Positions 3,075 to 21,201 of a stretch of DNA of 23,185 nt are shown one piece after another (the first letter of the stretch is position 1; the number at the start of each line of letters is the position of its first letter). The translations under genes and the position numbers were made by a program. The notes under the pieces are model-generated. The model did no database searches. It saw nothing but the letters and a program-made list of their open reading frames with translations, and was not told the origin of the DNA. This stretch comes from a virus, in the IMG/VR virus record IMGVR_UViG_3300009181_000358, positions 1 to 23,185 of that record, one strand, 5' to 3'.

Positions 3075-3399
3075 GCGAGTTCCTTTCAAAGTAATTAAGG
3101 TGCAATTGTAATTCTCTAGCGAGGAGGGCTGGAGGGAGCGCGTCGAGGGATATGGCGTCTGCCCACTTCCCCACAAACGACAGGCGGGGAAGGATACTCC
3201 CTGGCACCTTTCCCCAGTCTCCTACACATATCGGCGTGTGCGTGGCGCATGGTGTGCTCTCTATGTGATATAAAGGAGAACCAGACACTTCCACCGTCCC
3301 CCACCGTTCCCCGCATGTTTGACAAATATATAGGATAGAGTTCCCACAGGTTTGAGGAACTGTGAGGGAGACGCCTTGGATATTATAATGAATGGGCAT
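3046..3399 (-). CDS. Small Cys-rich (zinc-ribbon-like) hypothetical protein
   Basis: 117 aa. It holds a C-x2-C pair in YICQTCGERW near residue 27, further Cys/His (STPCATHTPIC) around residues 50-58, and then GSILPRLSF. This is consistent with a small zinc ribbon but not diagnostic. The 3' end overlaps the ATPase start by 29 nt. No clear Shine-Dalgarno precedes the ATG and the start follows the 3421 stop by 19 nt, so it is probably translated by coupling. Function unknown. Confidence 0.6.
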   Translation of the reverse strand: MPIHYNIQGVSLTVPQTCGNSILYICQTCGERWGTVEVSGSPLYHIESTPCATHTPICVGDWGKVPGSILPRLSFVGKWADAISLDALPPALLARELQLHLNYFERNSHDRDSIERQ

Positions 3400-6213: not shown

Positions 6214-6578
6214 GAGGGTTCCTTTAATTGTGCTGCGAGTTTTTCACATTCCGCCATTACGAATTCTAGGGAGCGAACGGGGCCATATGAGGGCCAGCGA
6301 GAACTGGGAGTTATATAACCATCATCCGCGTGGCAGCAATCGAAACCAAGCCACCATAGATCGTTATTATCAGTGAGTAACTTTCTACTGGAGAAGTTAA
6401 GTCCTCCATGAACGCTTAAATCTAATGCGTCATAATTTTGCATGTAGTAAGAAGAAGCAGGAGGAACTCCAACGTAGCCGCAGCGATGATGAGGGTCGTT
6501 ATCGAAGTTAATGATAAGACATATTGCGCGTAAACCGGCGACAGTTGTCCAGTCTTTTTCAAGAGTCGCGTTTATCAT
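6210..6578 (-). CDS. Conserved-type phage hypothetical protein, 122 aa
   Basis: It starts with an ATGA overlap with the upstream gene and ends in an ATGA overlap with the downstream one. The segment LDLSVHGGLNFSS followed by WWLGFDCCHADDG and a C-terminal helix (SLEFVMAECEKLAAQL) is a pattern that recurs in uncharacterised phage proteins. The conserved His, Gly, Asp, Cys and His could form an active or metal site (inference). Base composition is more AT-rich than its neighbours. Confidence 0.78.
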   Translation of the reverse strand: MINATLEKDWTTVAGLRAICLIINFDNDPHHRCGYVGVPPASSYYMQNYDALDLSVHGGLNFSSRKLLTDNNDLWWLGFDCCHADDGYITPSSRWPSYGPVRSLEFVMAECEKLAAQLKEPS

Positions 6579-7165
6579 AGTTTATTCAACTCAATGCGAA
6601 GGTTGATCTTGCTATCGTGTGCCATGACTGGGAGGATGTTGACGCCGGCGCGCAGCTCGATGAGGGAGTCATCGCCGGCGGAGAACTGCGTGTCGACAGC
6701 TAGCTCCACCCTCACCATGTTACCGAAGGAGAGGCAGACCACTACCTCTACGATAGGGGAGGCGGCGGATAGCTTGTCGAGGAGGAGGGGAAGGATAACG
6801 GTGATACGCTTCTGGGATGGCTCGGCAGCGGCGACTTCCTCCACGGCGGCGGGTAGCCAGTCGGTGTATTCACTCGCGACGATGGAGATGGGGGAGTCAG
6901 CGCGCACGAGGCGGCGGCAACTCTGCTCACTCCGGTGGGTGAGTTCCTGGAAATTGCCCAGGAGGGTGTTGCTGTCCCGGTGGATGAGCGCTATCCCGCG
7001 TCCCGCTATCCAGTTCTCCGGGTCAGTCCACTTCGCCGCCGTCTCCGTTTTGGACGGATCGGGCAGCACTTTCTTGACGGCGACGGGGCGCGCCTTCGGT
7101 GCGTGGAGGGCGTGGAAGGCGCGACGGGCTTCTTTAAAGAGATCGTCTAAGGATGAATCTTGCAT
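6575..7165 (-). CDS. Hypothetical protein, 196 aa, first gene of the main leftward operon
   Basis: The start follows CTTGGAGTCTCACAATG, a perfect copy of the recurrent leader, and lies about 60 nt downstream of promoter 7225-7253. The N-terminal third is helical (LDDLFKEARRAFHALH). The middle contains LPDPSKTETAAKW, DPENWIAGRG and a Ser/Glu-rich helix, and the C-terminal half is beta-rich (ITVILPLLLDKL, VVVCLSFGNMVRVEL). I do not recognise the family. Being promoter-proximal, it should be the most highly transcribed gene of the operon. Confidence 0.78.
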   Translation of the reverse strand: MQDSSLDDLFKEARRAFHALHAPKARPVAVKKVLPDPSKTETAAKWTDPENWIAGRGIALIHRDSNTLLGNFQELTHRSEQSCRRLVRADSPISIVASEYTDWLPAAVEEVAAAEPSQKRITVILPLLLDKLSAASPIVEVVVCLSFGNMVRVELAVDTQFSAGDDSLIELRAGVNILPVMAHDSKINLRIELNKL

Positions 7166-7224: not shown

Positions 7225-7253
7225 TATGACCACGGAACGGCGCAATTAGTTCC
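7225..7253 (-). promoter_or_regulatory. ECF-like promoter P1 (main leftward operon)
   Basis: Minus strand reads GGAACT-N17-GTCATA. The -10-like block is flanked exactly by a 5-bp inverted repeat (CCGTG/CACGG, 7220-7235). The promoter overlaps the stop codon of the 58-aa gene upstream. Downstream lies a short GGGC-AACTC-GCCC hairpin and then the GGAGTCTCAC leader. Confidence 0.7.
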
Positions 7254-7422
7254 CCGAACTATTAGCCTTTTTCTGCGCAGCCGCCAGATCGCGGTCACGA
7301 TGCTTGAGGCGAAGTGTCCAGCACGCGACGTTTATCTCCGCCTCGTCACGCTCGACCTGGATTCGCTCGGCGGTGTAGGAAGGGGAAGTAGGGCAGATGA
7401 GGGACTGGATGAATTTAAACAT
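7246..7422 (-). CDS. Hypothetical protein, 58 aa
   Basis: The start at 7422 (MFKFIQSLICP) follows GGGGGGAAATGCG and gives an 8-nt overlap with the upstream gene. A longer in-frame reading that would cover most of that gene is rejected. The N-terminus is short and hydrophobic. The rest is a charged helix (AERIQVERDEAEINVACW, LKHRDRDLAAAQKKA), a likely coiled coil. It might be a small membrane-associated protein, but no function is recognised. Confidence 0.6.
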   Translation of the reverse strand: MFKFIQSLICPTSPSYTAERIQVERDEAEINVACWTLRLKHRDRDLAAAQKKANSSGN

Positions 7423-7630
7423 CGCATTTCCCCCCTTCCACGCTCCAGTAGAGGACGGGGTTCTGGACGAAGTCGCTGGCGGCATATTTGTCAGGGTAGT
7501 CGCGGGCGTAGAGGACGCCGTAAGATTCCCCGCCCCAGGCGTTGGTGTATCGGATGATTCGCTGGGCGTGATCCTCTGCAAATTCCCCGGCGGCGATACG
7601 GTCTGCGATGCTTTTATCTACTGTGCTCAT
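7415..7630 (-). CDS. Hypothetical protein, 71 aa
   Basis: It starts behind CTTGGAGTCTCCACCATG, a variant of the recurrent leader, and is preceded by about 300 nt of highly structured non-coding sequence. The product has an N-terminal helix (SIADRIAAGEFAEDHAQRII) and a compact aromatic-rich domain (WGGESYGVLYARDYPDKY). Unknown function. The structured leader suggests translational control. Confidence 0.72.
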   Translation of the reverse strand: MSTVDKSIADRIAAGEFAEDHAQRIIRYTNAWGGESYGVLYARDYPDKYAASDFVQNPVLYWSVEGGKCDV

Positions 7631-7948
7631 GGTGGAGACTCCAAGATGTTACGAGACTCGCGGGGGAAACCGGCTGGGCAGCCCTCCCACCTGATAAGGA
7701 GAAGGGCTGCCGCCTGGCCGCCGGCAAGTGGAGTCTCACGTCGTCTTGCCGACTCGGAGCGCCCGTCGCAACTTAACACAGCCTTAGTCTGGTGACCCGC
7801 TGGGCTAACCCGGTTAGGGGGATGCTCCTAGTGCCGATGGCCGCTCGCGGCGGCCAAGGGACACAATAACCCGCTTACGCGGGAGGAGGGGGCCGGCCCC
7901 CACTTTAACGTGGAAGGTGGTGACTTGTCGCCGGCCCCTGCCGGAGGC
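7631..7948 (-). other. Structured non-coding leader or small-RNA region (array of hairpins)
   Basis: No plausible gene is seen in these 318 nt. In transcript order it contains a 14-bp palindrome GGGGGCCGGCCCCC (7888-7901) and CCCGC-GTAA-GCGGG followed by TTATTGTG (7870-7883, a possible terminator for the 230-aa gene). Next come a 7-bp hairpin TGGCCGC/GCGGCCA (7838-7856) and a short CTAACC/GGTTAG hairpin (7805-7817). Then follow a 6-bp hairpin with a 16-nt loop (7723-7750), a 9-bp hairpin GGCAGCCCT/AGGGCTGCC (7677-7711), and the RBS of the 71-aa gene. Confidence 0.6.
7723..7750 (-). ncRNA. Hairpin presenting an anti-ribosome-binding-site loop
   Basis: On the minus strand GGCAAG and CTTGCC form a 6-bp stem around a 16-nt loop containing GTGAGACTCC. 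That sequence is the exact reverse complement of GGAGTCTCAC, the leader found before the 196-aa and 66-aa genes, and it matches 8 nt of the RBS about 90 nt downstream. Pairing in cis or in trans would cover the Shine-Dalgarno. Whether an RNA is actually made from here is unknown. Confidence 0.45.
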
Positions 7949-8641
7949 TTACGCCCCAATTCCCTCCAACTCAGCATTCGCGTCCACCTTGGCCGCTTTG
8001 ACGGCCTTCGCCTCTTCCAGACGCTTGATGATAATACCCGTCTTGGTATTCGGCGAACGGAACGAGTCATACAGCGCTCGCCGCGTGAGGCGCTGGTCTT
8101 CCGGCTTGGACAGCTCGGCGTCCAGACGCTTCTGCACCCAGTCCTTGACCGCTTGCATGGTGAGGACAGGCTTGCCATTATCCGGGCGGCCTTCGTTACT
8201 CGCTTCAAGGACTGCTTGCAGGACAATGCCCGCACCCGACACTCCACCACCACCAGCTGCGCGCGCACGACCCCAAGTTCCCTTGCTCACATCAGCATAC
8301 AGATCATCAATAGCGATGACCATGTCTTCCTCTGTCAACGGCTTGTCCGCCGTGGTCGCCAGCTCGTCACCGAACTTCTGTTCCCCGCCGTGACCGGCAA
8401 ACTGCGCCAGCAGCGACAGTGGGAGGGGCAGTGTGCGTGTTTCGCCATTGCGGAAGTCCATGCGAATAGCGATTGCGCCCGCTTGGAATTGCACCACACC
8501 GTCTGCACTTTCCACCTTGCTCTGATCAATGATCGTGTCTTTGAGCACCTTGCGTTTGCCAGGGAACTCAACCACGCGGCCATCTGTCATTGTAACGCTC
8601 GTGTATTCCGTCTTACTCTTTGCTGCTGCTGCTTCGGCCAT
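7949..8641 (-). CDS. Hypothetical protein, 230 aa
   Basis: I choose the ATG at 8641 (MAEAAAAKSKTEY) over one 30 nt upstream, because TAGGAGTATCAAGATG fits the RBS pattern of the other minus-strand genes. The N-terminal third is beta-rich (TSVTMTDGRVVEFPGKR). A central part is Gly/Ala-rich (AGGGGVSGAG). The C-terminal half is helical and charged (VKDWVQKRLDAELSK, EEAKAVKAAKVDANAEL). Probably an abundant cytoplasmic early protein. I do not recognise the family. Its stop is followed by hairpins, one of which may terminate transcription. Confidence 0.75.
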   Translation of the reverse strand: MAEAAAAKSKTEYTSVTMTDGRVVEFPGKRKVLKDTIIDQSKVESADGVVQFQAGAIAIRMDFRNGETRTLPLPLSLLAQFAGHGGEQKFGDELATTADKPLTEEDMVIAIDDLYADVSKGTWGRARAAGGGGVSGAGIVLQAVLEASNEGRPDNGKPVLTMQAVKDWVQKRLDAELSKPEDQRLTRRALYDSFRSPNTKTGIIIKRLEEAKAVKAAKVDANAELEGIGA

Positions 8642-8698
8642 CTTGATACTCCTAGGTAGTTGTTTCGCCATTTCTAACGGGCGGCGAAGTGTCCCGTA

Positions 8699-8857
8699 TT
8701 AAGTGCCCGCTGGTGCGGGAGTGCGGAGATTGAAGGGCTGCATGTGCGGGTAGTGCCCATTCGCGCGGAAGGAGAGCTTCTTCGTGTTCCGCTTGCGTGG
8801 GGTGCCAGGTGCGTTGTATTGCTTGGCGGTTGTGTTGTGGCGACTGTTGGCGAGCAT
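8699..8857 (-). CDS. Very basic small protein, 52 aa
   Basis: The ATG at 8857 follows ACGGAGTCTTCAACT, a variant of the recurrent leader, and lies about 30 nt downstream of promoter 8891-8918. The product begins MLANSRHNTTAKQYNAPG, continues with a strongly basic TPRKRNTKKLSFRANG segment and ends in a Pro-rich tail. It has many Arg/Lys and almost no acidic residues, consistent with nucleic-acid or ribosome binding. No family recognised. A longer reading upstream of 8857 would cross the promoter and is rejected. Confidence 0.6.
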   Translation of the reverse strand: MLANSRHNTTAKQYNAPGTPRKRNTKKLSFRANGHYPHMQPFNLRTPAPAGT

Positions 8858-8890
8858 AGTTGAAGACTCCGTGGTGTTGTGTTGTGATGA

Positions 8891-8918
8891 TTGGACACGG
8901 GGCATTCGCCCCGGTTCC
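8891..8918 (-). promoter_or_regulatory. ECF-like promoter P2
   Basis: Minus strand GGAACC-N16-GTCCAA. A perfect hairpin CGGGGC-GAAT-GCCCCG (8898-8913) occupies nearly the whole spacer between the two blocks. It drives the 52-aa basic protein gene, and probably the 230-aa gene. Confidence 0.62.
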
Positions 8919-8936
8919 ACAGTTCGATGAATCTTT

Positions 8937-9341
8937 TTACACAACTGCGCCGCGACGTAACTCCTCCAGCCGCTTATTAAGTAGTATCTTCAGGCGGAGG
9001 AGCTCCACTTCCGTGAGGGTCATAATGTCCACTCCCTTCGCCACCTTCGCGTAGGTGCGCTTCGGAATCGCTTCATCCCGGACGAGCTGGTCGGGGAGAG
9101 GGCGGACAACGCGGAGGCTGACGTGAGGGCCTTTATGCCCAGGGGCTCGGTCGGAGCTGACGGGGGCGTCCTTCGCCAGCACGAGTTGGGATACGAGAGA
9201 GCTAATCGTCGAGTGCGGCATCGGCGGCTCGATCACTTTATGTAAGTCGGCTGTCGTGCAGCCATCCTCCAGCAACTTGATCGTTTCATACACCTTCACG
9301 ACGTGCTTCCAAAGGGGATTAAACTTATTCATTGCTTGCAT
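8937..9341 (-). CDS. Putative winged-helix DNA-binding protein
   Basis: 134 aa from the second of two adjacent ATGs (9341). This one has GGAG 7 nt upstream, as in the other leaders, while 9344 is the alternative. The N-terminus WKHVVKVYETIKLLEDGCTT followed by ADLHKVI and MPHSTISSLVSQLVLAKDAP resembles a helix-turn-helix (winged-helix) in which PHSTISSLVSQL would be the recognition helix. The C-terminus is a Leu/Arg-rich helix (EVELLRLKILLNKRLEELRR), a possible dimerisation coiled coil. It may be a phage transcriptional regulator. The target is unknown. Confidence 0.62.
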   Translation of the reverse strand: MQAMNKFNPLWKHVVKVYETIKLLEDGCTTADLHKVIEPPMPHSTISSLVSQLVLAKDAPVSSDRAPGHKGPHVSLRVVRPLPDQLVRDEAIPKRTYAKVAKGVDIMTLTEVELLRLKILLNKRLEELRRGAVV

Positions 9342-9372
9342 CATAAGACTCCTTGTCGGCTTGATTGCCGCA

Positions 9373-9394
9373 TCAGCCCGCTGCGACGGGCTGA
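9373..9394 (-). repeat. Hairpin in the leader of the winged-helix gene
   Basis: 8-bp arms TCAGCCCG/CGGGCTGA with a 6-nt loop, followed on the minus strand by a second, smaller hairpin (CGGC-AATCAA-GCCG) and then AAGGAGTCTTATG. It may end upstream transcription or control translation. No T-run is present. Confidence 0.5.
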
Positions 9395-9401
9395 GACTGC
9401 C

Positions 9402-9575
9402 TCACGCCCCTTTATGTCGAGTGGGCGTGTGTGGCGCCCAGATACCTGGTAGGGAGAGTTGTCGAGGGGTCTTCCCGACGGCGCTGCTGGGTTTCGCGAG
9501 TATGTCGCGCATCTTCCCGCACCAGTAGGCGGCGACCAGTCGGTCGTGGAGCCAGCGATCTTTATTCAGCTTCAT
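9402..9575 (-). CDS. Hypothetical protein, 57 aa
   Basis: The start at 9575 (MKLNKDRWLHDRL) has GAGGAG 7 nt upstream, located inside the end of the upstream gene (14-nt overlap). A longer in-frame reading is rejected. The product is helical and basic with two Trp and one Cys (VAAYWCGKMRDILAK), then a Pro/His-rich tail. Function unknown. Confidence 0.62.
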   Translation of the reverse strand: MKLNKDRWLHDRLVAAYWCGKMRDILAKPSSAVGKTPRQLSLPGIWAPHTPTRHKGA

Positions 9576-9762
9576 GGCGCATCTCCTCATCTGCAAGTAT
9601 CCACGCCAGTTCTGCCGCCTCCTCCAGCCCCGCTTCTTCAAGTGTGCAGCATTCCTCCCCACACTTGCAGTCGAGAGTGTCGTCGGCGAGCTGGGCGGCG
9701 AGCAGGGCGGATATCTCCGCCATTTGCGGGGATAGTGCGAGTGTGCGATAGGCTGCTTTCAT
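9562..9762 (-). CDS. Acidic Cys-containing hypothetical protein, 66 aa
   Basis: Starts behind TAGGAGTCTCACCATG, a perfect recurrent leader, downstream of promoter 9808-9836. The product is Ala/Glu-rich and helical, with a CKCGEECC cluster in the middle that could bind a metal. The strongly acidic character could indicate a DNA mimic or host-protein inhibitor, but that is speculation. Confidence 0.7.
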   Translation of the reverse strand: MKAAYRTLALSPQMAEISALLAAQLADDTLDCKCGEECCTLEEAGLEEAAELAWILADEEMRHEAE

Positions 9763-9783
9763 GGTGAGACTCCTAAGTGACCG

Positions 9784-9820
9784 GGGCGGAATTGTCCCGG
9801 TTAATAATTGGACAATGGTG
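9784..9820 (-). repeat. Two overlapping, mutually exclusive hairpins in the P3 leader
   Basis: On the minus strand ATTGTCC can pair with GGACAAT, or CCGGG can pair with CCCGG just before the RBS. Both use the same GGGAC bases, so only one can form at a time. The first arm overlaps the -10 block of P3 and so may be only partly transcribed. Confidence 0.4.
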
Positions 9821-9836
9821 GGGTGGGGCGAGTTCC
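9808..9836 (-). promoter_or_regulatory. ECF-like promoter P3
   Basis: Minus strand GGAACT-N17-GTCCAA. Bases upstream of the -35-like block (CGAACTGTC) also resemble those before P2 (CGAACTGT). It precedes the 66-aa gene with its GGAGTCTCAC leader. Confidence 0.65.
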
Positions 9837-9852
9837 GACAGTTCGCACAATA

Positions 9853-10206
9853 CTACGAGTCGAGCTGGGCGATTGTCGGCGGCGGAATGACTGCTGCGCG
9901 CGCTGCCAGGATAATATCTCGGTCGCACTCTGCCACCTGGCCTTCCGTCCAGCCCTTCGCGGCGATAAGAAGGGCGGAGACCGCGTTAAATCCTTTCCCC
10001 ATAACTTCCACTGCATACATCGTGTGGGAGGAGCGGTGCTTGGTGGCGAAGGCGGCGAGCCGCTCTGCCGCGATACCGGCAGTCTGGGAGTGCCAGACGA
10101 GGGTGAATAGGTCGCGTCCGTGACGCTGCGCTACCGGCCGGAATGTCGGCGGGAGGTCGAGGAAGGGATCGGCGTCGCTTGCGACGGGTATTTCGAGTAG
10201 TGCCAT
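9853..10206 (-). CDS. Hypothetical protein, 117 aa
   Basis: The start at 10206 (MALLEIPVASDADPF) follows AAAGGAGCATATC. A 17-residue upstream extension is rejected because it would include that RBS. The product is a compact alpha/beta domain with HGRDLFTLVWHSQTAGIAA, a long helix, and FNAVSALLIAAKGWTEGQV followed by a helical C-terminus. Probably soluble. Family not recognised. It is the last gene of the unit starting at promoter 11005-11033. Confidence 0.7.
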   Translation of the reverse strand: MALLEIPVASDADPFLDLPPTFRPVAQRHGRDLFTLVWHSQTAGIAAERLAAFATKHRSSHTMYAVEVMGKGFNAVSALLIAAKGWTEGQVAECDRDIILAARAAVIPPPTIAQLDS

Positions 10207-10228
10207 GATATGCTCCTTTGTTGAAATG

Positions 10229-10576
10229 TTAATCTGGTAAGTCGGGCGTCGCCACAATCGCGGCGACTGTCGAGTGATCTACCGATGGCGCGTCTCCGCC
10301 CTCCAGGGGAGAGAGGGGCGGCGGCGGAGTGTCGAGGGAGCGCTGCACCGCGAGCATCCTGGCTAGCATTCTTTCCTCATGTGGTTGTGCGCCCAGTATG
10401 GGGATATCCTTCCACACTTCACCGCGCACTATTCGCCCTATCTGTCCTATCGAGTATGGATAGCGTTTACACAGCGAGCCTTGCGTCTCTCCCCTGGCGT
10501 AGGCAGCACGAATCTCCTTAATAAGCTCCGGCGAATTCGTTGCCCCTTCCCGATTCCCCTTTGTAAATTTACTCAT
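10229..10576 (-). CDS. Helix-turn-helix-type hypothetical protein, 115 aa
   Basis: The start at 10576 (MSKFTKGNREG) overlaps the stop of the 51-aa gene as ATGA. The longer in-frame reading runs through that gene and is rejected. The segment LIKEIRAAYARGETQGSLCK followed by RYPYSIGQIGRIVRGEVWK looks like the resolvase/HNH-type HTH (R-x-x-YA-G, L-x-x-x-Y, I-x-x-I-V-x-G-x-x-W) that reads DNA in many phage proteins. The C-terminal half is Pro-rich and low-complexity. It may be a regulator or the DNA-binding part of a lost nuclease. Confidence 0.68.
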   Translation of the reverse strand: MSKFTKGNREGATNSPELIKEIRAAYARGETQGSLCKRYPYSIGQIGRIVRGEVWKDIPILGAQPHEERMLARMLAVQRSLDTPPPPLSPLEGGDAPSVDHSTVAAIVATPDLPD

Positions 10577-10728
10577 TGCCCTACCCCCAGCCACCGTGAC
10601 GGGAGGGAGTAGTTCATCGGGAGCTGCTCGCACTCCGTATCCGTGCTGCACAGCCAGCCCTGCTCCTCCTTGTAAAAGATGACTCCGATGATAAGTGCTA
10701 TCGTGCAAATTGCTAGTATTGCTTTCAT
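10573..10728 (-). CDS. Small membrane protein, 51 aa (one TM segment)
   Basis: The N-terminus MKAILAICTIALIIGVIFYK is one hydrophobic segment, either a transmembrane anchor or a signal peptide. It is followed by an acidic, Cys-containing tail (GWLCSTDTECEQL) that would be periplasmic or extracellular. CGGAG lies 9 nt upstream. The stop overlaps the next ATG (ATGA). The Cys and length could suit a superinfection-exclusion or lysis-accessory peptide, but nothing proves it. It is the first gene after the long inverted repeat and promoter P4. Confidence 0.68.
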   Translation of the reverse strand: MKAILAICTIALIIGVIFYKEEQGWLCSTDTECEQLPMNYSLPSRWLGVGQ

Positions 10729-10810
10729 GTCGCTATTCTCCGTTAAGTGGTTAAGTAAAACTTGCTCGAATGGGCGTATCCTGTTCCTCTCACCCTCTCC
10801 TCTTTCCCCT

Positions 10811-10839
10811 CCTCATCATACGGCCTTCAATAATTTTAG
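10811..10839. repeat. Long inverted repeat, left arm
   Basis: 29 nt matching the reverse complement of 10946-10974 at 26 positions. Pyrimidine-rich flanks (10793-10810) extend the pairing imperfectly. On a minus-strand transcript two of the three differences become G-U wobbles. Confidence 0.85.
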
Positions 10840-10945
10840 TAATCCATGTCCCAGTGTGTGTGCTCAGGTGTTTGTGTATCTGTTATTGTAGTATTAAAAA
10901 AAAATATAATAATAAACCTAGACCTACAGACAGAATCCTCGAAAC

Positions 10946-10974
10946 CTAAAATTATTGAGAACCGTATGATGAGG
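10946..10974. repeat. Long inverted repeat, right arm
   Basis: Partner of 10811-10839, followed by a purine-rich flank (10975-10990) that continues the complementarity with gaps. The arms are separated by 106 nt. Confidence 0.85.
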
Positions 10975-11004
10975 GAAGGAGAGAGAGGGCGAGACATACC
11001 CGTG

Positions 11005-11033
11005 TATGACATCGTGATGGCGCGAAAAGTTCC
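11005..11033 (-). promoter_or_regulatory. ECF-like promoter P4
   Basis: Minus strand GGAACT-N17-GTCATA. It shares with P1 the 12-mer CCCGTGTATGAC (plus strand) and a common GGCGC near the -35 side of the spacer, about 30 of 42 positions overall. It reads into the long inverted repeat. Confidence 0.68.
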
Positions 11034-11069
11034 TCAAACTGTCGAAGAACTTCCCGCGCCCCTTCGCCA

Positions 11070-11405
11070 TTAAAAGCGCATCCAACTCGGCCGGTCTGGG
11101 GAGAATTGCAAATCAAGTATTCTCTTCTGCTTCGCCGCCATGCGTGCCAGGTATTCCTGGTCAGTTGGCGCTACGCACTCGTAGGTGAAGCTGCCATCAA
11201 TTCTCCCCGCATCGAACTCATCCGGAGTTCCTGCCGCATCAAGCTCGGCGAGAATGCGCTTTGTCCGCTCCTCCCGCTCCCGCGTTTTAATCGCTTCCCG
11301 TTCCACAGCTGCCGCGCGAATGCGCTCTTGATACTCCTCCTCTTTAATCGCGCCTAACCGCTCTTCCGCCATGCGCGCTATATCGCGCGGATTAATCGTC
11401 GCCAT
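11070..11405 (-). CDS. Hypothetical coiled-coil protein, 111 aa
   Basis: Starts behind ACGGAGGTCTCAAATG, a leader variant. The N-terminal 55 residues form a long, highly charged helix (ARMAEERLGAIKEEEYQERI and onward), a probable coiled coil. The C-terminal part is a short basic helix (EYLARMAAKQKRILDLQF). No family recognised. A 10-bp inverted repeat and a TTGACA-containing spacer lie between it and the upstream gene. Confidence 0.75.
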   Translation of the reverse strand: MATINPRDIARMAEERLGAIKEEEYQERIRAAAVEREAIKTREREERTKRILAELDAAGTPDEFDAGRIDGSFTYECVAPTDQEYLARMAAKQKRILDLQFSPDRPSWMRF

Positions 11406-11445
11406 TTGAGACCTCCGTTTGTTAAAAATCTGGGTGTAATTCTGT

Positions 11446-11475
11446 CAATACCCTCACGATGGGGCGAGGGTATTG
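11446..11475 (-). repeat. 10-bp inverted repeat between the 128-aa and 111-aa genes
   Basis: CAATACCCTC/GAGGGTATTG with a 10-nt loop, 6 nt after the upstream stop. On the minus strand it ends in TTGACA, followed 17 nt later by TTAACA, so a weak sigma70-type promoter may start here. There is no U-tract for a clear terminator. Confidence 0.6.
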
Positions 11476-11481
11476 TGTGAA

Positions 11482-11868
11482 TTACGCTCCAATCTTGGCG
11501 AGGCTACTTTTCACAAATTCTTCAATTAGCGATTCATAACTCCGTCCCGTTACCCGTGCGAGTTCTTCTACTTCCGGTATCCGTGGTGCCGCGCGTTTCG
11601 TTTCCCATGTGGAATTCGCGCTATTCTCATAATGCGCGACAAGGGGCGCAACAGCATCATAACGCATTTGCTCTGTCACGGTGATAATGTCACCTGTTTT
11701 CGCATCTTTCCGGGGTATTGCAGCCGCATCGCCCAGCCGCGCCAGCCATCCGTGGCGTTCAGCCGCGATACGATTTTGCGAGGATACTCGTGACGGGTCA
11801 AAGGTGATGCTCGGCACGCCCTCTTCAAAGGTGAATACAATTGTATTTCCAACGATTGCTTTTTTCAT
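11482..11868 (-). CDS. Hypothetical protein, 128 aa
   Basis: Starts behind AACGGAGTCTCAAAATG, downstream of promoter 11915-11942. The N-terminus (MKKAIVGNTIVFTFEEGVPS) is beta-rich, and the product continues with a helix (NRIAAERHGWLARLGDAAAI). Its end, VEELARVTGRSYESLIEEFV, is helical and may contact nucleic acid or protein. The pattern (F-x-F-x-x-G, then RL-GDAA-IPR) recalls uncharacterised phage early proteins. Function unknown. Confidence 0.78.
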   Translation of the reverse strand: MKKAIVGNTIVFTFEEGVPSITFDPSRVSSQNRIAAERHGWLARLGDAAAIPRKDAKTGDIITVTEQMRYDAVAPLVAHYENSANSTWETKRAAPRIPEVEELARVTGRSYESLIEEFVKSSLAKIGA

Positions 11869-11888
11869 TTTGAGACTCCGTTATGTTT

Positions 11889-11930
11889 GGGAAATTTCCC
11901 GCATGATGCACTATTTTGACAATGCATCAT
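11889..11930 (-). promoter_or_regulatory. P5 leader: inverted repeat around the -10 plus GGGAAATTTCCC palindrome
   Basis: An 8-bp inverted repeat (ATGATGCA 11903-11910, TGCATCAT 11923-11930) encloses the -10 block. The 12-bp palindrome (11889-11900) sits between it and the RBS. The same two-part layout occurs at 12173-12212 with different arm sequences. Confidence 0.6.
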
Positions 11931-11942
11931 ATGTGAAGTTCC
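11915..11942 (-). promoter_or_regulatory. ECF-like promoter P5
   Basis: Minus strand GGAACT-N16-GTCAAA, directly upstream of the 128-aa gene. It overlaps the stop codon of the 69-aa gene. Confidence 0.7.
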
Positions 11943-12151
11943 TAGTATTTTACATCTTTATTAACATCGTGTGTCCGTGCGTATTGCCGAGCATTCCGTA
12001 AATCTTTCCATGTGCCAATTGTCGCACCGTCCGGGTGATTTACATAATACCGCCCATTATCCGGGTTCCACGATAATTGCCAGCCGTTAAATATACCTTG
12101 ATCTACCGCCGGTTCATTGCCGTTCATCGGCACATTTACATGTAATCCCAT
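11942..12151 (-). CDS. Hypothetical protein, 69 aa
   Basis: Starts behind AACGGAGTCTCAAAATG, downstream of promoter 12197-12224. The product contains FNGWQLSWNPDNGRYYVNHP followed by TWKDLRNARQYARTH, a small beta-hairpin domain then a helix. It is aromatic-rich and soluble. Family not recognised. AT-richer than the structural genes. Confidence 0.75.
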   Translation of the reverse strand: MGLHVNVPMNGNEPAVDQGIFNGWQLSWNPDNGRYYVNHPDGATIGTWKDLRNARQYARTHDVNKDVKY

Positions 12152-12172
12152 TTTGAGACTCCGTTATATTTT

Positions 12173-12212
12173 GGGAAAATTCCCTCATTGCACACGTTTG
12201 ACCATGTGCAAT
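12173..12212 (-). promoter_or_regulatory. P6 leader: inverted repeat around the -10 plus GGGAA/TTCCC hairpin
   Basis: An 8-bp inverted repeat (ATTGCACA 12187-12194, TGTGCAAT 12205-12212) encloses the -10 block, and GGGAAAATTCCC (12173-12184) precedes the RBS. Architecture and downstream bases match the P5 leader while the arms differ. Confidence 0.6.
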
Positions 12213-12224
12213 AAATGAAGTCCC
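12197..12224 (-). promoter_or_regulatory. ECF-like promoter P6
   Basis: Minus strand GGGACT-N16-GTCAAA. It differs from the consensus at one base of the first block. It precedes the 69-aa gene. Confidence 0.62.
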
Positions 12225-12225
12225 G

Positions 12226-12456
12226 TTATTCGCTAAAATGCGATATATAAACTCCTCGTGAAACGGCGCGAATATCGCCATTTTTAGCCATTCGATCAAT
12301 CACGTTTTCAATTCTTTTCCCATACGGCAATCGTGCGCATAGCCATTTACGTGTAAATGTCCCCGTTGTTTCATCACAAATAACATCCCATGCGGCCTCC
12401 GTTAATCCCGTGAATGATGTTATTGGTGCGCCCGGCTTTGTGTATCGTTTTTCCAT
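12226..12456 (-). CDS. Putative winged-helix regulator, 76 aa
   Basis: The start at 12456 (MEKRYTKPGAPITSF) has GGAGCTCACATG and a promoter (12485-12512) lying inside the longer in-frame reading, so that longer form is rejected. LTEAAWDVICDETTGTFTRK followed by IENVIDRMAKNGDIRAVSRG and VYISH has the layout of a winged-helix domain, with the final RGVY strand typical of AbiEi-type antitoxin or regulator N-termini. It is the gene nearest the divergent control region, which suggests a role in controlling the early or late promoters. This is inference. Confidence 0.65.
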   Translation of the reverse strand: MEKRYTKPGAPITSFTGLTEAAWDVICDETTGTFTRKWLCARLPYGKRIENVIDRMAKNGDIRAVSRGVYISHFSE

Positions 12457-12484
12457 GTGAGCTCCATTTTGTTGATTGTATTCG

Positions 12485-12512
12485 TTTGACCGTTGATGCA
12501 TTGCTTGGTTCC
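12485..12512 (-). promoter_or_regulatory. ECF-like promoter P7
   Basis: Minus strand GGAACC-N16-GTCAAA, about 30 nt upstream of the 76-aa gene start. It supports the shorter start for that gene. Confidence 0.65.
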
Positions 12513-12573
12513 ATTCATTCCAAAAATAATTCAATTTATTTTCAATCGCCACCATAATTTCTTGTTACATACA

Positions 12574-12601
12574 TATGACGCCCCCGCCGTGCAATGGTTC
12601 C
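12574..12601 (-). promoter_or_regulatory. ECF-like promoter P8
   Basis: Minus strand GGAACC-N16-GTCATA, upstream of and in tandem with P7. It would give a longer leader for the 76-aa gene. It marks the left edge of the divergent control region. Confidence 0.58.
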
Positions 12602-12904
12602 AGCAATTTCAAAATATATTCATTACATTATTTCAGCTCACGATATACAAAATGTAATGTGGCTGGTGCGGTGCAACATGGTAATAATGCTGCGCTGCAA
12701 CATGTTGCCGTCGCCGTCCAAGCCGTGGACACACCTGCCGAGTCCAAGCTGTGCAAAAAGGGTGCCGGGGGGCAAATAAAAAAACTTAATTTATGACTTT
12801 AATGCTTTTCCTAAAATTATTTTTTTGGAGTTACGCACGTGTAGTATCGACACGTACAACCCGTGCAATTCGACGGTACCCCTGTTGAATGAGCAGCGCA
12901 GCGC
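12602..12904. other. AT-rich divergent control region (possible origin or operator region)
   Basis: No gene is seen. It contains a 9-bp inverted repeat CATTACATT/AATGTAATG (12621-12659) and GCAACATG at 12673 repeated within the perfect palindrome GCAACATGTTGC (12697-12708). There is also GTCCA-AGCCG-TGGAC (12716-12730), a strongly A/T-rich block (about 12774-12827) with runs of seven A and seven T, and ACGTGT/ACACGT (12837-12855). It lies between leftward and rightward promoters, so it is a natural place for operators or a replication origin. Confidence 0.5.
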
Positions 12905-12933
12905 GGAACTTCCTCGCCTCGCCGCCGGTCATA
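12905..12933 (+). promoter_or_regulatory. ECF-like promoter P9 (structural operon)
   Basis: Plus strand GGAACT-N17-GTCATA, the only rightward copy. It ends 28 nt before the first packaging gene, which has AGGAGCCACATG as RBS. It therefore probably drives the head and packaging genes. Confidence 0.68.
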
Positions 12934-12961: not shown

Positions 12962-13468
12962 ATGAGTACTGCCCTGCCCGCCGCCGCCACCCCGACAATG
13001 GGGAATCTCGCGAAGGTATCCTACACCCACCAAGATATGATTGATTATATCATCTCGCAGGGGCGGGTGACGAACAAGCAACTTGCGTTGCGATACGGGT
13101 ATAGCGAGGGCTGGGTGTCGAACATCATGGCGAGTGACGCTTGGCAGAGTATGATGGCCGCCCGCCGGGAAGAGATTACTGATCCGCTCCTCAAGACGAC
13201 CCTGGAAGAGCGGTATCGCGGCCTCGCCATGCGATCTGTCGAAAGGTTGATGGAGAAGCTTGACGCCCCCGGCGTGTCAGACGCAGTCGTCCTTAAAGCG
13301 GTGGAGCTGGGCGCGAAAGCGGTAGGGGCCGGCGGCAATGCGCCGCCCGTCGCAACGAGCAATTCCACCGATCACCTCGCGAACCTTGCGAATCGACTCA
13401 TTGATCTCCAATCGAAAGTGCGCGCTAGCGTAGAAAGGACAATAGATGGCACAGCCACGCAAGTATAA
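12962..13468 (+). CDS. Putative terminase small subunit
   Basis: 168 aa, first gene of the rightward operon. After a low-complexity Ala/Pro start, HQDMIDYIISQGRVTNKQLA followed by LRYGYSEGWVSNIMASDAW forms a clear helix-turn-helix. Next comes a helical region (LEERYRGLAMRSVERLMEKL) and a C-terminal helix, as in small terminases that recognise the packaging site and assemble into rings. It lies 0.5 kb upstream of the large subunit with three short genes between. The family is inferred from HTH content and position, and a structural search would settle it. Confidence 0.65.
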   Translation: MSTALPAAATPTMGNLAKVSYTHQDMIDYIISQGRVTNKQLALRYGYSEGWVSNIMASDAWQSMMAARREEITDPLLKTTLEERYRGLAMRSVERLMEKLDAPGVSDAVVLKAVELGAKAVGAGGNAPPVATSNSTDHLANLANRLIDLQSKVRASVERTIDGTATQV

Positions 13469-13736: not shown

Positions 13737-14032
13737 CCAATGCCTCGTTCCCCATCAAGGACGCCGCCGCCTCGCGGGTCTTCTCGTTTAACTTCCAAGA
13801 CCAGCTTGCTGTTGGCGAAACCATTAGTAGCGCGACAGTCACAGCAGCTGTCTATTCTGGCACAGACGCCAGCCCCAGCTCGCTTATCTCCGGCGCGGCG
13901 AGCGTCTCCGGTGCGACGGTCTCCCAAGTGATAGCGGCAGGAACCGCCGGCGTGACGTATGTGCTGACCTGCACAGCGATCACGTCCCTCTCTCACACAA
14001 TCGCGTCAGCTGGCCCGCTGGTGGTAATGTGA
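13733..14032 (+). CDS. Putative structural protein, 99 aa
   Basis: 99 aa coupled on both sides by 4-nt overlaps. The sequence is almost wholly beta with Thr/Ser/Ala repeats (SATVTAAVYSGTDASPSSLI, GVTYVLTCTAITS), like small virion-surface or Ig-like phage domains. Function is inferred from composition and location. Without a hallmark motif it remains a hypothetical virion component. Confidence 0.68.
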   Translation: MTNASFPIKDAAASRVFSFNFQDQLAVGETISSATVTAAVYSGTDASPSSLISGAASVSGATVSQVIAAGTAGVTYVLTCTAITSLSHTIASAGPLVVM

Positions 14033-15525
14033 AGCTGACCGCGGATCTGATCGAAGCGTTCGCGGGGACTTTCATCTCCCCCCGGTATGACAATCCCGCT
14101 CCCACCCCCGCGATCCACCGGGAAGCGTGGACACTCTACACTTCCGACGCGATGCAGGCTATGGTGGTTGCGCCACGGGAGCATGCGAAGAGCACCGCCC
14201 TCACCACTGTTTACATCCTGGCGGAGGCCCTGTTCCGCACCGCTGATTACATCGTCCTCGTGTCTTCGACGGAGGAGCTTGCCGCCGAGCAGCTGGGCAA
14301 CATCTCCGAGGAACTCCACGAGAATGAGGATCTCCGCAACGAGTTCGGCATCAAGGCGTTCCCGTCGGACAGCAAGCAGGATTTGATTGTCGAGATGAAT
14401 GACGGGCACAAGTTTCGCATCCTGTGCCGGGGCGCAGAGCAGCGGATACGGGGGCGGCTGTGGAAGGGCAAGCGCCCCAACCTCCTTGTCTGTGATGACA
14501 TGGAAGATGATGAACAGGTGGAGAACCCTGATCGGAGAGGGAAATTCCGCCGGTGGTTCTTCAGGGCGGCGAAGCAGAGCGTGGGACGCTACGGGCGCAC
14601 CCGCGTCCACGGCACCATCCTCCATGAGGATAGCCTCTTGTCCCGCCTCCGCAAGAATCGCTCGTGGAAACACCTGTATTACAAAGCGCATCGCGCATTT
14701 GATGATTACTCGAATATCCTGTGGCCCGAGCAATGGCCGGAGGAGCGCCTCCGCGCCCGCCAGCAAGAGTTCATCGAGGACGGGGACGCCGCCGGTTACT
14801 CGCAGGAATTCCTCAATGACCCGCAAGACGGCCTCGCCGCCTACCTTCGCCGCGACGATTTCATCGTGATGAAAGAGGAAGATTACGATGTACCCCTGGA
14901 CGTGCGGGCGGCGTGGGACTTCGCGGTAAGTAAGGCGGATATCGCTAATCGGACGAGTTGCACGGTAGGTGGGCAGTCCGCCGACAATCGGCTGATGTTC
15001 CTAGATTTCTACGTAGGCCGGTGGAATCCGACCGTCTCGCCGGCGGAGCTCGAGCGTGGTGAGCAAGGTTGGATCGACCTGATGTTCGAAGTCCAAGCGC
15101 GCCATTCCCCCGCCTGCCATTACGTGGAAGGTGGGACGATCTGGAATTCCATTAAGAACGTTATCTCTTCCGAGATGAGCCGCCGAGGAATCTTCCTCAA
15201 CATTGAGGTGCTGAACCCGATCAAAGATAAGACGGTTCGGGGCCTCGGATTGAAGAAGCGTCACCGTGCCGGCGCCACCCGCTGGAACGCGAAGGCGACT
15301 GGCTACGAGGGTGCGAAGGAAGAGTGCTTGAAGTTCACTGGCTCCGCCTCCGCCCGCCTCGACGACCAGTTTGACTCGGCGGCCACCCTAGTAATCGGAT
15401 TCGACATGACTGTTGCCCCGCAAGATGAAGATTTCCTCGACGACGACGAGCAGGAAATGGAGCGTGGGTTTTGGCAGACTCGCCCCGGGGTTGCCGCCGG
15501 TCGCAATAGATACAGTGGCTACTAA
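14029..15525 (+). CDS. terL: Terminase large subunit
   Basis: 498 aa, GTG start overlapping the previous TGA. The N-terminal ATPase has Walker A VAPREHAKST (residues 47-56), an adenine-binding context upstream, Walker B NLLVCDDMEDDE (151-162) and a coupling-like VHGTILHEDS (193-201). The C-terminal RNase H-like nuclease begins at AAWDFAVSKAD (Asp297 as a first catalytic Asp), with later strands (RLMFLDFYVG) and acidic residues. The protein powers DNA translocation into the procapsid and cuts concatemers. The GREHAKST-type P-loop is typical of large terminases, so the assignment is firm. Confidence 0.95.
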   Translation: MKLTADLIEAFAGTFISPRYDNPAPTPAIHREAWTLYTSDAMQAMVVAPREHAKSTALTTVYILAEALFRTADYIVLVSSTEELAAEQLGNISEELHENEDLRNEFGIKAFPSDSKQDLIVEMNDGHKFRILCRGAEQRIRGRLWKGKRPNLLVCDDMEDDEQVENPDRRGKFRRWFFRAAKQSVGRYGRTRVHGTILHEDSLLSRLRKNRSWKHLYYKAHRAFDDYSNILWPEQWPEERLRARQQEFIEDGDAAGYSQEFLNDPQDGLAAYLRRDDFIVMKEEDYDVPLDVRAAWDFAVSKADIANRTSCTVGGQSADNRLMFLDFYVGRWNPTVSPAELERGEQGWIDLMFEVQARHSPACHYVEGGTIWNSIKNVISSEMSRRGIFLNIEVLNPIKDKTVRGLGLKKRHRAGATRWNAKATGYEGAKEECLKFTGSASARLDDQFDSAATLVIGFDMTVAPQDEDFLDDDEQEMERGFWQTRPGVAAGRNRYSGY

Positions 15526-17718: not shown

Positions 17719-17960
17719 TCTCTGAAACAGAATTCCTCGAGTGGCTCGATCACCCTGCCACCCGTGACATGAAAAAATTCCTAGCGAGCCGGCGAGAGGC
17801 ACTCCGGCAAAGTTGGGAAGGAGGTAGTTTCACCGACTACACCTCCGAGGGCACAACCCTCACAAGTGTCGGTAATATCGGTCTCTGCCGTGGCTACGCC
17901 ACTGTCATGGACTTAACGTATGACGAATTAGTATCGGAGCTAGATAATGGAAAATCGTAG
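17715..17960 (+). CDS. Hypothetical protein, 81 aa
   Basis: The ATG overlaps the portal TGA by 4 nt (ATGA), and the gene overlaps the next one by 14 nt. The product is mostly helical (EFLEWLDHPATRDMKKFLAS and YATVMDLTYDELVSELDNGK) with a short loop. Similar small proteins are found in this position in other phages, but I do not recognise a function. Confidence 0.75.
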   Translation: MISETEFLEWLDHPATRDMKKFLASRREALRQSWEGGSFTDYTSEGTTLTSVGNIGLCRGYATVMDLTYDELVSELDNGKS

Positions 17961-18264
17961 TGGACTGGAGCCGCGTGGTGTAGCGGTGCTTATTCAATTG
18001 TATGAACCTGAACGTCAAGGTGCTAAGATTGTCATTCCTGATCTTGTGCAAACCCGCATGTCTATGGCAGATACCCGTGCATTGGTTATCGCTGTTGGCC
18101 CGTCGGCTTGGCATGATGAACCGCAGCCTCGTGCCGCCGTGGGTGATAAAGTGCTCGTGACGAAATTCGCCGGCATGTCTGCCATTGGCCCCGCTGATGG
18201 AGCCGCCTACCGTCTTGTAAACGACCGTGACATATTCTGTGCGATCGTGAAGGAGGCCGCATGA
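17947..18264 (+). CDS. GroES-like co-chaperonin (Cpn10-type fold)
   Basis: 105 aa. VAVLIQLYEPERQGAKIVIP (first beta-barrel strands and mobile-loop region), then RALVIAVGPSAW, AAVGDKVLVTKFAG, and DGAAYRLVNDRDIFCAIV, match the order of GroES blocks (G-x-I-IP, G-x-VVAVGPG, VGDRVLF-KYAG, Y-x-x-x-D-DI-A-I). Phage co-chaperonins such as T4 gp31 help host GroEL fold capsid protein. Here it sits between the portal and scaffold genes and upstream of the major capsid gene. It overlaps the scaffold start by 4 nt. Whether it binds GroEL is not shown. Confidence 0.8.
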   Translation: MENRSGLEPRGVAVLIQLYEPERQGAKIVIPDLVQTRMSMADTRALVIAVGPSAWHDEPQPRAAVGDKVLVTKFAGMSAIGPADGAAYRLVNDRDIFCAIVKEAA

Positions 18265-19100
18265 GCGACCTTACTAGCGCCGCCACTCCTGAACAGCAGA
18301 CTGCCGCTTCTGCCCTTGGGTGGACGCCGCCGGAACGCTACAAAGGCGACCCTACCCTTTACATCGACGCTGAAGAATTCATAAAGCGCGGTGAAACCGT
18401 TCTCCCGATTGTGAAGAAACAGTTGGAGAAGACTCGGGAAGAACTTGCAAAGCAGAATCGAGTGAATGCGGAAGTATCTGCCGCCTTGGTCGCCGCGCAA
18501 ACTGCAATTGAAGATCTGAAAGAACACAATACGGTCGCCACTCAACGAGCGGTGGAAAACGCTCGCAAGGAATTGAAAGCGCAACTCGTTGCCGCCTCCG
18601 AAGCTGGCGATCATATCGGTGTCTCCGAGCTAACTGACCAGCTGATCAAGCTCCCCACTGCTGCGCCGGCGGCGGAGAAGAAAGAGACCCCCACACCCGC
18701 CCAATGGCAACCTGAACCTTCCTTGTCCAGCTGGATGGAAGCTAACCCCTGGTGGGGGGTGGATAAGAAAAAGACTGGTCTCGCTCTCGGCATCGCCCAG
18801 GAACTGCGCGAGAAGGGTAATACCCAGGTTGGCACAGATTTCTATGACCTTATCTCTTCTGAAGTCGATAAGGTGCTTGCGCCACCGGCGGCAGACGAGC
18901 CTGTTGACAAGGTTGCTGGTGTTCGCAACAGTGGCGGCGCTTCGCGAGGTGGCGGCAAACAAAGTTTCGCTGCTCTCCCTGCCGATGCTAAAGCGCAATG
19001 TAACGCCGAGGCGCGTGAATTTGTAGGCGCCAGCAAACGCTACAAAACAAACGAAGAATGGCAAGCCCAGTTCGCTAAACTATATTTCGCAATGGAGTAA
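18261..19100 (+). CDS. Capsid scaffold protein
   Basis: 279 aa, starting as ATGA. The N-terminus GWTPPERYKGDPTLYIDAEE followed by FIKRGETVLPI and a long charged coiled coil (KKQLEKTREELAKQNRVNAE) is the usual phage scaffolding layout. Then comes a Pro/Ala-rich linker (about residues 130-150). A C-terminal segment contains GGASRGGGKQSFAALPADAK and a helical end. Scaffolds assemble the procapsid with the major capsid protein and leave before packaging. Order (portal, GroES-like, scaffold, capsid) supports this. Confidence 0.85.
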   Translation: MSDLTSAATPEQQTAASALGWTPPERYKGDPTLYIDAEEFIKRGETVLPIVKKQLEKTREELAKQNRVNAEVSAALVAAQTAIEDLKEHNTVATQRAVENARKELKAQLVAASEAGDHIGVSELTDQLIKLPTAAPAAEKKETPTPAQWQPEPSLSSWMEANPWWGVDKKKTGLALGIAQELREKGNTQVGTDFYDLISSEVDKVLAPPAADEPVDKVAGVRNSGGASRGGGKQSFAALPADAKAQCNAEAREFVGASKRYKTNEEWQAQFAKLYFAME

Positions 19101-20280: not shown

Positions 20281-21201
20281 ATGGCTGCTGGAGTTATCAA
20301 TACCGCATCGCACCCCAAGTTACTTTGGCCCGGTGTATATACCACGTGGGGTCAGATCTACGACTCTCATCAAAAGGAATACACGGATCTCTACGAGATC
20401 AAGCATTCCGACAAGGCTTACGAGCAGGGCGTGCAAGTTACCCCGTTCGGTTTAGCGCCTTACAAACCGCAAGGCTCGCCGGTCACTTACGACGGTGAAG
20501 TGCAGGGCGTCGTCAACACTTATCAGCATCTCGCCTACGCTCTCGGTTACATCGTGACGTTTGAAGAGTTGCAGGATAATCAGTATAAGGAAGTGGCGAG
20601 CAATCGCGCCGCTGCCAACGCATTCTCAATGCAGCAGACTATCGAGAACGTTGGCGCCTTCCTTTACAATAACGCCTTCGTGACGACTTATTTCACGACT
20701 GGTGATAGCGCCGCACTCGTAAGCACTGCCCACGTTAACGCGACGGGTGGCACTTATAGCAACGCGCTGTCCCCGGCGGCCGACTTGTCGGAAGCATCAC
20801 TCGAAGACTTGACCATCCAGATCATGGGTGCCACCAACGACACGGGCCTGCTGATCAACGTAATGCCACGTTCACTCCACATCGCGCGCCAAGAATGGTA
20901 TAATGCGAATCGGATCTTGAACTCGGTATTGCAATCCGACACCGCGCAGAATAATATCAACGTGCTGAAAGCGACCAACGCTTTCCCCGAAGGTATTAAG
21001 ATGAATCACTATTTCACCTCTGCGCATCCGTGGTTTATCCGCACTAACGTGCAAAAGGGTATGACCATGTTCTGGAGGAATGAACCGATGTTCGATCAGG
21101 ACAACGACTTTGATACCAAGAACGCAAAGGCTGCGAGTTACATGCGGTTCTCCGTGGGTTGCACAGATCCGCGCGGGATCTACGGCAGCAACGGGCCGTA
21201 A
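20281..21201 (+). CDS. Major capsid protein
   Basis: 306 aa. MAAGVINTASHPKLLWPGVY followed by EYTDLYEIKHSDKAYEQ resembles the HK97-fold/Mu gpT-type N-arm. It continues with YALGYIVTFEELQDNQYKEV (a spine-helix-like segment), a long helix (ASNRAAANAFSMQQTIENVG), an E-loop/P-domain stretch (DTGLLINVMPRSLHIARQEW), and a C-terminal DNDFDTKNAKAASYMRF. Placed after scaffold and decoration genes, it is the likely shell protein. The RBS is AAGGAG. The gene ends before a strong hairpin that may limit downstream transcription. Confidence 0.85.
   Translation: MAAGVINTASHPKLLWPGVYTTWGQIYDSHQKEYTDLYEIKHSDKAYEQGVQVTPFGLAPYKPQGSPVTYDGEVQGVVNTYQHLAYALGYIVTFEELQDNQYKEVASNRAAANAFSMQQTIENVGAFLYNNAFVTTYFTTGDSAALVSTAHVNATGGTYSNALSPAADLSEASLEDLTIQIMGATNDTGLLINVMPRSLHIARQEWYNANRILNSVLQSDTAQNNINVLKATNAFPEGIKMNHYFTSAHPWFIRTNVQKGMTMFWRNEPMFDQDNDFDTKNAKAASYMRFSVGCTDPRGIYGSNGP

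Follow-up and report, generated by a model that had tools for sequence, protein, structure and literature searches.

Which sigma factor reads the dispersed two-block elements of a 23,185-nt fragment of a tailed-phage genome (IMG/VR record IMGVR_UViG_3300009181_000358, positions 1 to 23,185; this whole stretch is hereafter called the window)? An earlier reading of the letters alone, the original prediction, had proposed nine such elements as promoters for an extracytoplasmic function (ECF) sigma factor. Based on an analysis that was computational throughout, we propose that the elements are sigmaE-type (ECF02/AlgU-type) promoters and that they form the principal class of promoter in a clade of tailed phages with genomes of approximately 45 kb. 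In most of this clade, they are probably read by the host RNA polymerase together with a sigmaE-like domain, which the phage would supply within a giant protein that is probably packaged and ejected.

All nine elements are present at the positions and on the strands reported for them, eight as exact matches to GGAACY-N16/17-GTCMWA and one as the GGGACT copy at 12197-12224, and their blocks had been counted correctly (GGAACT five times, GGAACC three times and GGGACT once; GTCATA four times, GTCAAA three times and GTCCAA twice). Scanning the window revealed a tenth site, which had been overlooked. The promoter-like sites are as follows:

3318-3344, minus strand: GGAACT-N15-GTCAAA, approximately 67 nt before the ATG at 3250 of a small open reading frame (ORF; 3116-3250), ahead of a Sak4-like gene
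7225-7253, minus strand: GGAACT-N17-GTCATA, 60 nt before gene 6575-7165; a CCGTG/CACGG inverted repeat flanks GTCATA
8891-8918, minus strand: GGAACC-N16-GTCCAA, approximately 33 nt before an ATG with the ribosome site GGAGTCT; the spacer contains a CGGGGC/GCCCCG hairpin
9808-9836, minus strand: GGAACT-N17-GTCCAA, 46 nt before gene 9562-9762
11005-11033, minus strand: GGAACT-N17-GTCATA, no close gene; approximately 350 nt before gene 10229-10651
11915-11942, minus strand: GGAACT-N16-GTCAAA, 47 nt before gene 11482-11868; the -10 is framed by an inverted repeat
12197-12224, minus strand: GGGACT-N16-GTCAAA, 46 nt before gene 11942-12151; again an inverted repeat frames the -10
12485-12512, minus strand: GGAACC-N16-GTCAAA, 29 nt before gene 12226-12456
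12574-12601, minus strand: GGAACC-N16-GTCATA, 118 nt before gene 12226-12456; a second site, stacked behind 12485-12512
12905-12933, plus strand: GGAACT-N17-GTCATA, 29 nt before gene 12962-13468, the first rightward gene of the packaging and head arm

Shuffled sequence, with which the original prediction had suggested comparing the pattern, does not contain it equally often: the eight exact matches in the window compare with a mean of 0.07 and a maximum of 2 in 100 dinucleotide shuffles. When all variants were pooled, ten sites were found versus a mean of 0.08 and a maximum of 2 under a Markov null (400 null sequences). Enrichment in the window is restricted to spacers of 15-17 nt, and in 1.03 Mb of related sequences GGAAC-N17-GTC occurs 105 times versus approximately 33 times at other spacings. 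With null expectations of 0.07-0.08 and an element that is conserved in relatives, the idea of chance matches is refuted and retains next to no probability.

The original prediction had placed the elements at the starts of transcription units, and most of the window copies are located 29-60 nt ahead of a start codon on the same strand. There are exceptions, and the weakest cases as gene-start promoters are the site at 11005-11033, the leader of which is long, the two stacked sites 12485/12574 and the site at 3318-3344, which precedes a small ORF only. The positions in the window and in ten relatives also support the proposal that a single promoter class serves the DNA-metabolism genes of the leftward arm as well as the structural genes of the rightward one. 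In addition, an extended ribosome site, GGAGTCT(CA), recurs before leftward start codons (7176, 7642, 8870, 9352, 9773, 11879 and 12162, all on the minus strand).

The description of the elements as sigma-type and ECF-type was right and can be sharpened to the sigmaE/AlgU (ECF02) consensus. The published Escherichia coli and Salmonella sigmaE promoter consists of the -35 block GGAACTTTT and the -10 block GTCAAA (PMC1804206; for the -35 consensus see also PMC8103513), and the phage element equals it in sequence and spacing. Its -35 block is GGAACTT-like and its -10 block is GTCAAA/GTCTRA-like at a distance of 16-17 nt, some -10 blocks in the window being GTCATA or GTCCAA. Among 29 non-redundant sites, the spacer measures 16 nt in 24 and 17 nt in five. 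Two features are conserved at positions that had not been used in the search, namely a pyrimidine directly after the -10 block (28 of 29 sites) and a pyrimidine-purine step at +5/+6 (purine in 25 of 29), which is a putative start-site signature; transcription from a sigmaE-type promoter would begin approximately 6-7 nt downstream.

As in the original prediction, a promoter for a T7-like single-subunit polymerase was rejected, since the element comprises two blocks with unrelated spacers and not one contiguous conserved block. A hairpin promoter of the N4 type was likewise rejected, as inverted repeats are only mildly enriched and variable. Several sites do have inverted repeats around the second block, and the elements could be read as operators or as RNA or DNA hairpin elements instead of promoters; spacer stems of at least four were counted 11 times versus 5.1 expected, and stems of at least six across the -10 block seven times versus 1.8. 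However, the sequences and positions of the stems vary between sites and most sites have no stem, whereas the fixed 16-17-nt spacing and the exact sigmaE blocks are promoter features, and we regard this explanation as very improbable. The inverted repeats, which differ in sequence and are situated within the spacer or on either side of the -10 block, are found in the window at 7225-7253, 8891-8918, 11915-11942 and 12197-12224 and show a mild enrichment across the clade; they could be operators.

Relatives were gathered by a terminase search, which returned 65 viral loci; a simple calling of ORFs underlies their coordinates. Records with approximately 59-69% terminase identity contain GGAAC-N17/18-GTC with an A/T-rich second block, whereas more distant ones essentially lack it. 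In 16 clade records, the element was hit 91 times versus seven times for the reversed pattern, and each of 11 clade genomes has 4-8 intergenic copies of GGAACTW-N16-GTC(T/A/C)AA versus 0-1 in each of 13 others. In an unbiased dyad search of upstream regions, GGAAC-N17/18-GTCT ranked first or joint first in five genomes (G005, G011, G014, G015 and G016). Placement is conserved as well, with matching sites ahead of the counterpart of window gene 12962-13468. The motif-bearing phages form a monophyletic group by terminase, capsid and portal, and the window is the sister of genome G004.

With regard to the factor that reads these promoters, the original prediction had left the choice between a host ECF sigma factor and one encoded by the phage. 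The relatives do encode their own sigma, which is located inside a giant ejection-type protein of the late arm and not in a separate early gene. Of the nine motif-bearing relatives with a fully covered giant gene, eight (G005, G011, G015, G016, G020, G038, G041 and G042) encode an entire ECF sigma, with regions 2 and 4, within a late-arm protein of 1,340-2,060 amino acids. These giants are single genes with both sigma regions in the middle of the protein. Pfam region 4 hits were obtained in 17 of 46 records, nearly all of them within open frames of 1,300-2,350 amino acids, and both PF04542 and PF08281 score above the Pfam cut-off in L085, L086, L087, L089, L091 and L093; sigma regions 1.1 and 3 gave no Pfam hits in the relatives' giants, an absence that means a lack of hits only. 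The sigmaE-like domain is absent or divergent in 13 genomes that lack the motif, an association of 8/9 versus 0/13 that is drawn from related genomes and does not represent 22 independent cases.

The best PDB sequence matches of the sigma domain are E. coli sigmaE (2e-24) and Pseudomonas AlgU (9e-25), and a fold search with a model of moderate confidence (pLDDT 70) returned the same neighbours. Modelled region 2 superimposes on region 2 of sigmaE bound to its -10 element with a TM-score of 0.86. In sigmaE, residues R171, S172 and R176 read the bases -31C, -34G and -35G (PMC3397946), and the equivalent positions are R, S/T and R in all 16 sigmaE-like giants. By comparison, six divergent giants could be aligned there, and five of them differ at one or more of the three residues; none of the genomes of the divergent giants carries the motif. 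We suggest that the domain would recognize the phage promoters as its cognate sites.

In G041 and G042, the sigma domain is present on a different C-terminal backbone. This backbone is also found in sigma-less, motif-less phages, which suggests that the sigma domain is a movable module. A search with the sigma domain alone returned nine more giant-gene contigs, six of them with the promoter, which in five lies directly downstream of the giant gene; among GenBank phages, none with the same giant was found, and only unrelated sigma or SLT stretches matched. A sigmaE-type promoter directly after the stop codon of the giant gene, driving genes without an assigned function, is seen, for example, at G015:11526, G016:6144, G020:15042, L164:5378 and L177:8758. 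For the genomes with a divergent sigma, the search for other promoters gave hints only (CCAAA-N13-CCGATAT in G027 and palindromes in G032 and G035), too few for a covariation test.

How could a sigma domain encoded late in the structural operon act at the onset of infection? We propose that the giant protein, in the middle of which the domain sits, is probably packaged in the virion and ejected with the DNA, and that the ejected domain would direct the host polymerase to the promoters of the phage from the very start of infection, with no need for host sigma70 or a phage polymerase. The giant gene sits in the late arm after the head and tail genes. Homologous giants contain lysozyme-like SLT, LPD23 and methyltransferase (MTase) domains, and a sigma-less relative contains ART-PolyVal. 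SLT, PcfJ, ART, MTase and LPD modules mark the phage polyvalent proteins, which have been proposed to be injected (Iyer et al. 2017, PMC5512222); the giants qualify by these modules, within the motif clade by PcfJ only, in a single member (L090). For the C-terminal module, modelled at pLDDT 64, a fold search returned internal virion proteins (internal virion protein D, 2e-5) as well as polyvalent and PcfJ-like ones, and its sole significant PDB match is the PhiM1 ejectosome (E 5e-4), both with low TM-scores and from a model of moderate confidence. As the TM-scores are low, this likeness to ejectosome and internal-virion folds is supportive, but not proof. One might go further, and on balance we lean towards the view that the ejected giant carries in its middle a functional version of the host's envelope-stress sigma factor that escapes its anti-sigma, with the whole genome wired to sigmaE promoters, so that infection would start by turning the host polymerase to the phage and would need neither a phage polymerase nor early sigma70 promoters.

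Several observations weigh against a sigma domain that is supplied by the phage and delivered by the virion. The support for ejection consists of fold, position, one PcfJ hit and homologues, and SLT or LPD domains were not found in the giants of the motif clade itself. The same promoter class also precedes late genes, and a sigma factor alone leaves the timing unexplained. G024, which encodes a divergent giant, retains the R-S-R residues yet has no motif. Furthermore, G004, the nearest complete relative of the window, keeps the promoters and encodes a giant of 1,268 amino acids with no detectable sigma; neither a full-sensitivity hidden Markov model search nor hhalign revealed a hidden one. 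The giant gene of the window phage itself is unseen, as L187 (IMGVR_UViG_3300027754_000654), which was identified in an exact-match scan as identical over 5,240 nt and extends the window 11.5 kb rightward, ends approximately two genes before the position at which the giant gene starts in G004.

The giant-borne sigma could also be real but take effect only after its synthesis in the late phase, serving as a late sigma factor that is not ejected. Consistent with this, its gene lies in the late arm, the promoter is often found directly after the giant gene (e.g. in L164, L173 and L175-L177), and free phage late sigma factors with bipartite promoters exist (7-11 gp47, PMC8948821). However, most sites precede leftward DNA-metabolism genes and the carrier resembles an ejection protein, and we consider a purely late role unlikely.

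The alternative that survives best is that the host sigmaE/AlgU reads the promoters. Damage to the envelope during entry would free sigmaE from its anti-sigma, the phage would be wired to the stress response, and the sigma domain of the relatives would be an add-on. Rhodocyclaceae-type (betaproteobacterial) hosts would be expected to carry a sigmaE-type factor, and a capsid relative lies in a contig of a Rhodocyclaceae metagenome-assembled genome, a hint at the host that could be a binning error. The motif matches the host sigmaE consensus (PMC1804206), and the sister of the window, G004, has the motif but no sigma. Set against this, motif and sigma domain co-occur elsewhere (8/9), and relatives that lack the sigmaE-like domain, such as G009, have no intergenic copies, which is unexpected if the host factor alone reads them. 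Across the clade, we regard reading by host sigmaE as possible, though clearly the less probable explanation; for the window phage it is a live and serious rival, because G004 lacks a sigma.

For the window phage, either reader named in the original prediction is plausible, since its giant gene lies off the contig and its closest complete relative has no sigma. No sigma gene or domain was found in the window or in its 11.5-kb extension, which does not reach the position of the giant gene. In searches for further sequence, the right end of the window was found once, and the left end and sequence further to the right were not found; a search with the G004 giant matched itself only, and one with the 540-amino-acid gene of the extension returned no close relative. 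We still favour a phage-supplied sigma domain in most of the clade, and the window phage may itself encode one beyond the end of the extension.

Phages are known to inject modifying enzymes (T4 Alt), whole RNA polymerases (N4) and polyvalent proteins, and they also make sigma factors after entry. The phage system shares with the sigmaE (RpoE)/AlgU regulon the -35 block GGAACTT, the -10 block GTCAAA/GTCTAA, the 16-nt spacing and a sigma whose closest counterparts are E. coli sigmaE and AlgU; unlike in that regulon, these promoters are the main class of a phage genome, the sigma forms one domain of a giant phage protein and we saw no anti-sigma. In the phiEco32-like phage 7-11, the sigma24-like gp47 recruits the host core polymerase to bipartite promoters (GTAAtg-16-aCTA) with starts 6-9 nt downstream (PMC8948821). 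The giant-borne sigma is likewise phage-encoded and goes together with bipartite phage promoters, whereas gp47 exists as a protein of its own that is produced in the course of infection, serves late genes and reads an unrelated sequence. The N4 virion RNA polymerase of Schitoviruses is a giant multidomain virion protein that is ejected with the DNA and starts phage transcription (PMC12633501). The ejection proposed here would be similar, but N4 ejects a whole polymerase, whereas only a sigma domain would be delivered here and the host core polymerase would do the work. Polyvalent proteins resemble the giants in size, in their SLT, PcfJ, ART, MTase and LPD modules and in their proposed injection; an embedded ECF sigma module is not described for them, and the word 'sigma' is absent from that report (PMC5512222). 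In the literature searched, coverage of which was partial, no sigma factor inside an ejected protein was found. If our proposal is true, delivery of a sigma by the virion would add a minimal route by which phages take over their hosts, the promoter map would be predicted by the sequence of a structural protein, and entry of the phage through the envelope would be linked to the envelope-stress transcription code of its host.

The remaining gene content of the window, with a terminase, a portal protein (weak SU10-type match), Cpn10 and a capsid protein, identifies a tailed phage; no tRNA and no Rfam element were found in it. Two of these genes served in the comparisons above:

14029-15525, plus strand: terminase large subunit (PHROG 38), with which the clade was found
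20281-21201, plus strand: major head/protease-type capsid protein; near relatives share 78-86% identity

The Cpn10 (GroES-like) co-chaperonin gene (17947-18264) lies among the head genes and is conserved in relatives, and the gene at 292-1620 encodes a ParB-like nuclease domain fused to a DNA methyltransferase. Among the relatives, G027 (L134-L136), the giant of which has a divergent sigma, contains a repeated TTTTCCAAAA...TTCCGATAT at 18916, 21177 and 23127, possibly a promoter class of its own. G032 (L137-L139) carries six copies of a TAACT-N4-GTTCAAATTTTGAAC palindrome (e.g. G032:15561), one of them just upstream of the giant gene, and G035 (L142-L144) carries repeated ATTGTTTCA-N-TGAAACAAT palindromes; both are operator-like. 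Finally, single genes of approximately 820 amino acids at L101:10140-12602 and L100:11644-14121 combine a uracil-DNA glycosylase domain with a family A DNA polymerase.

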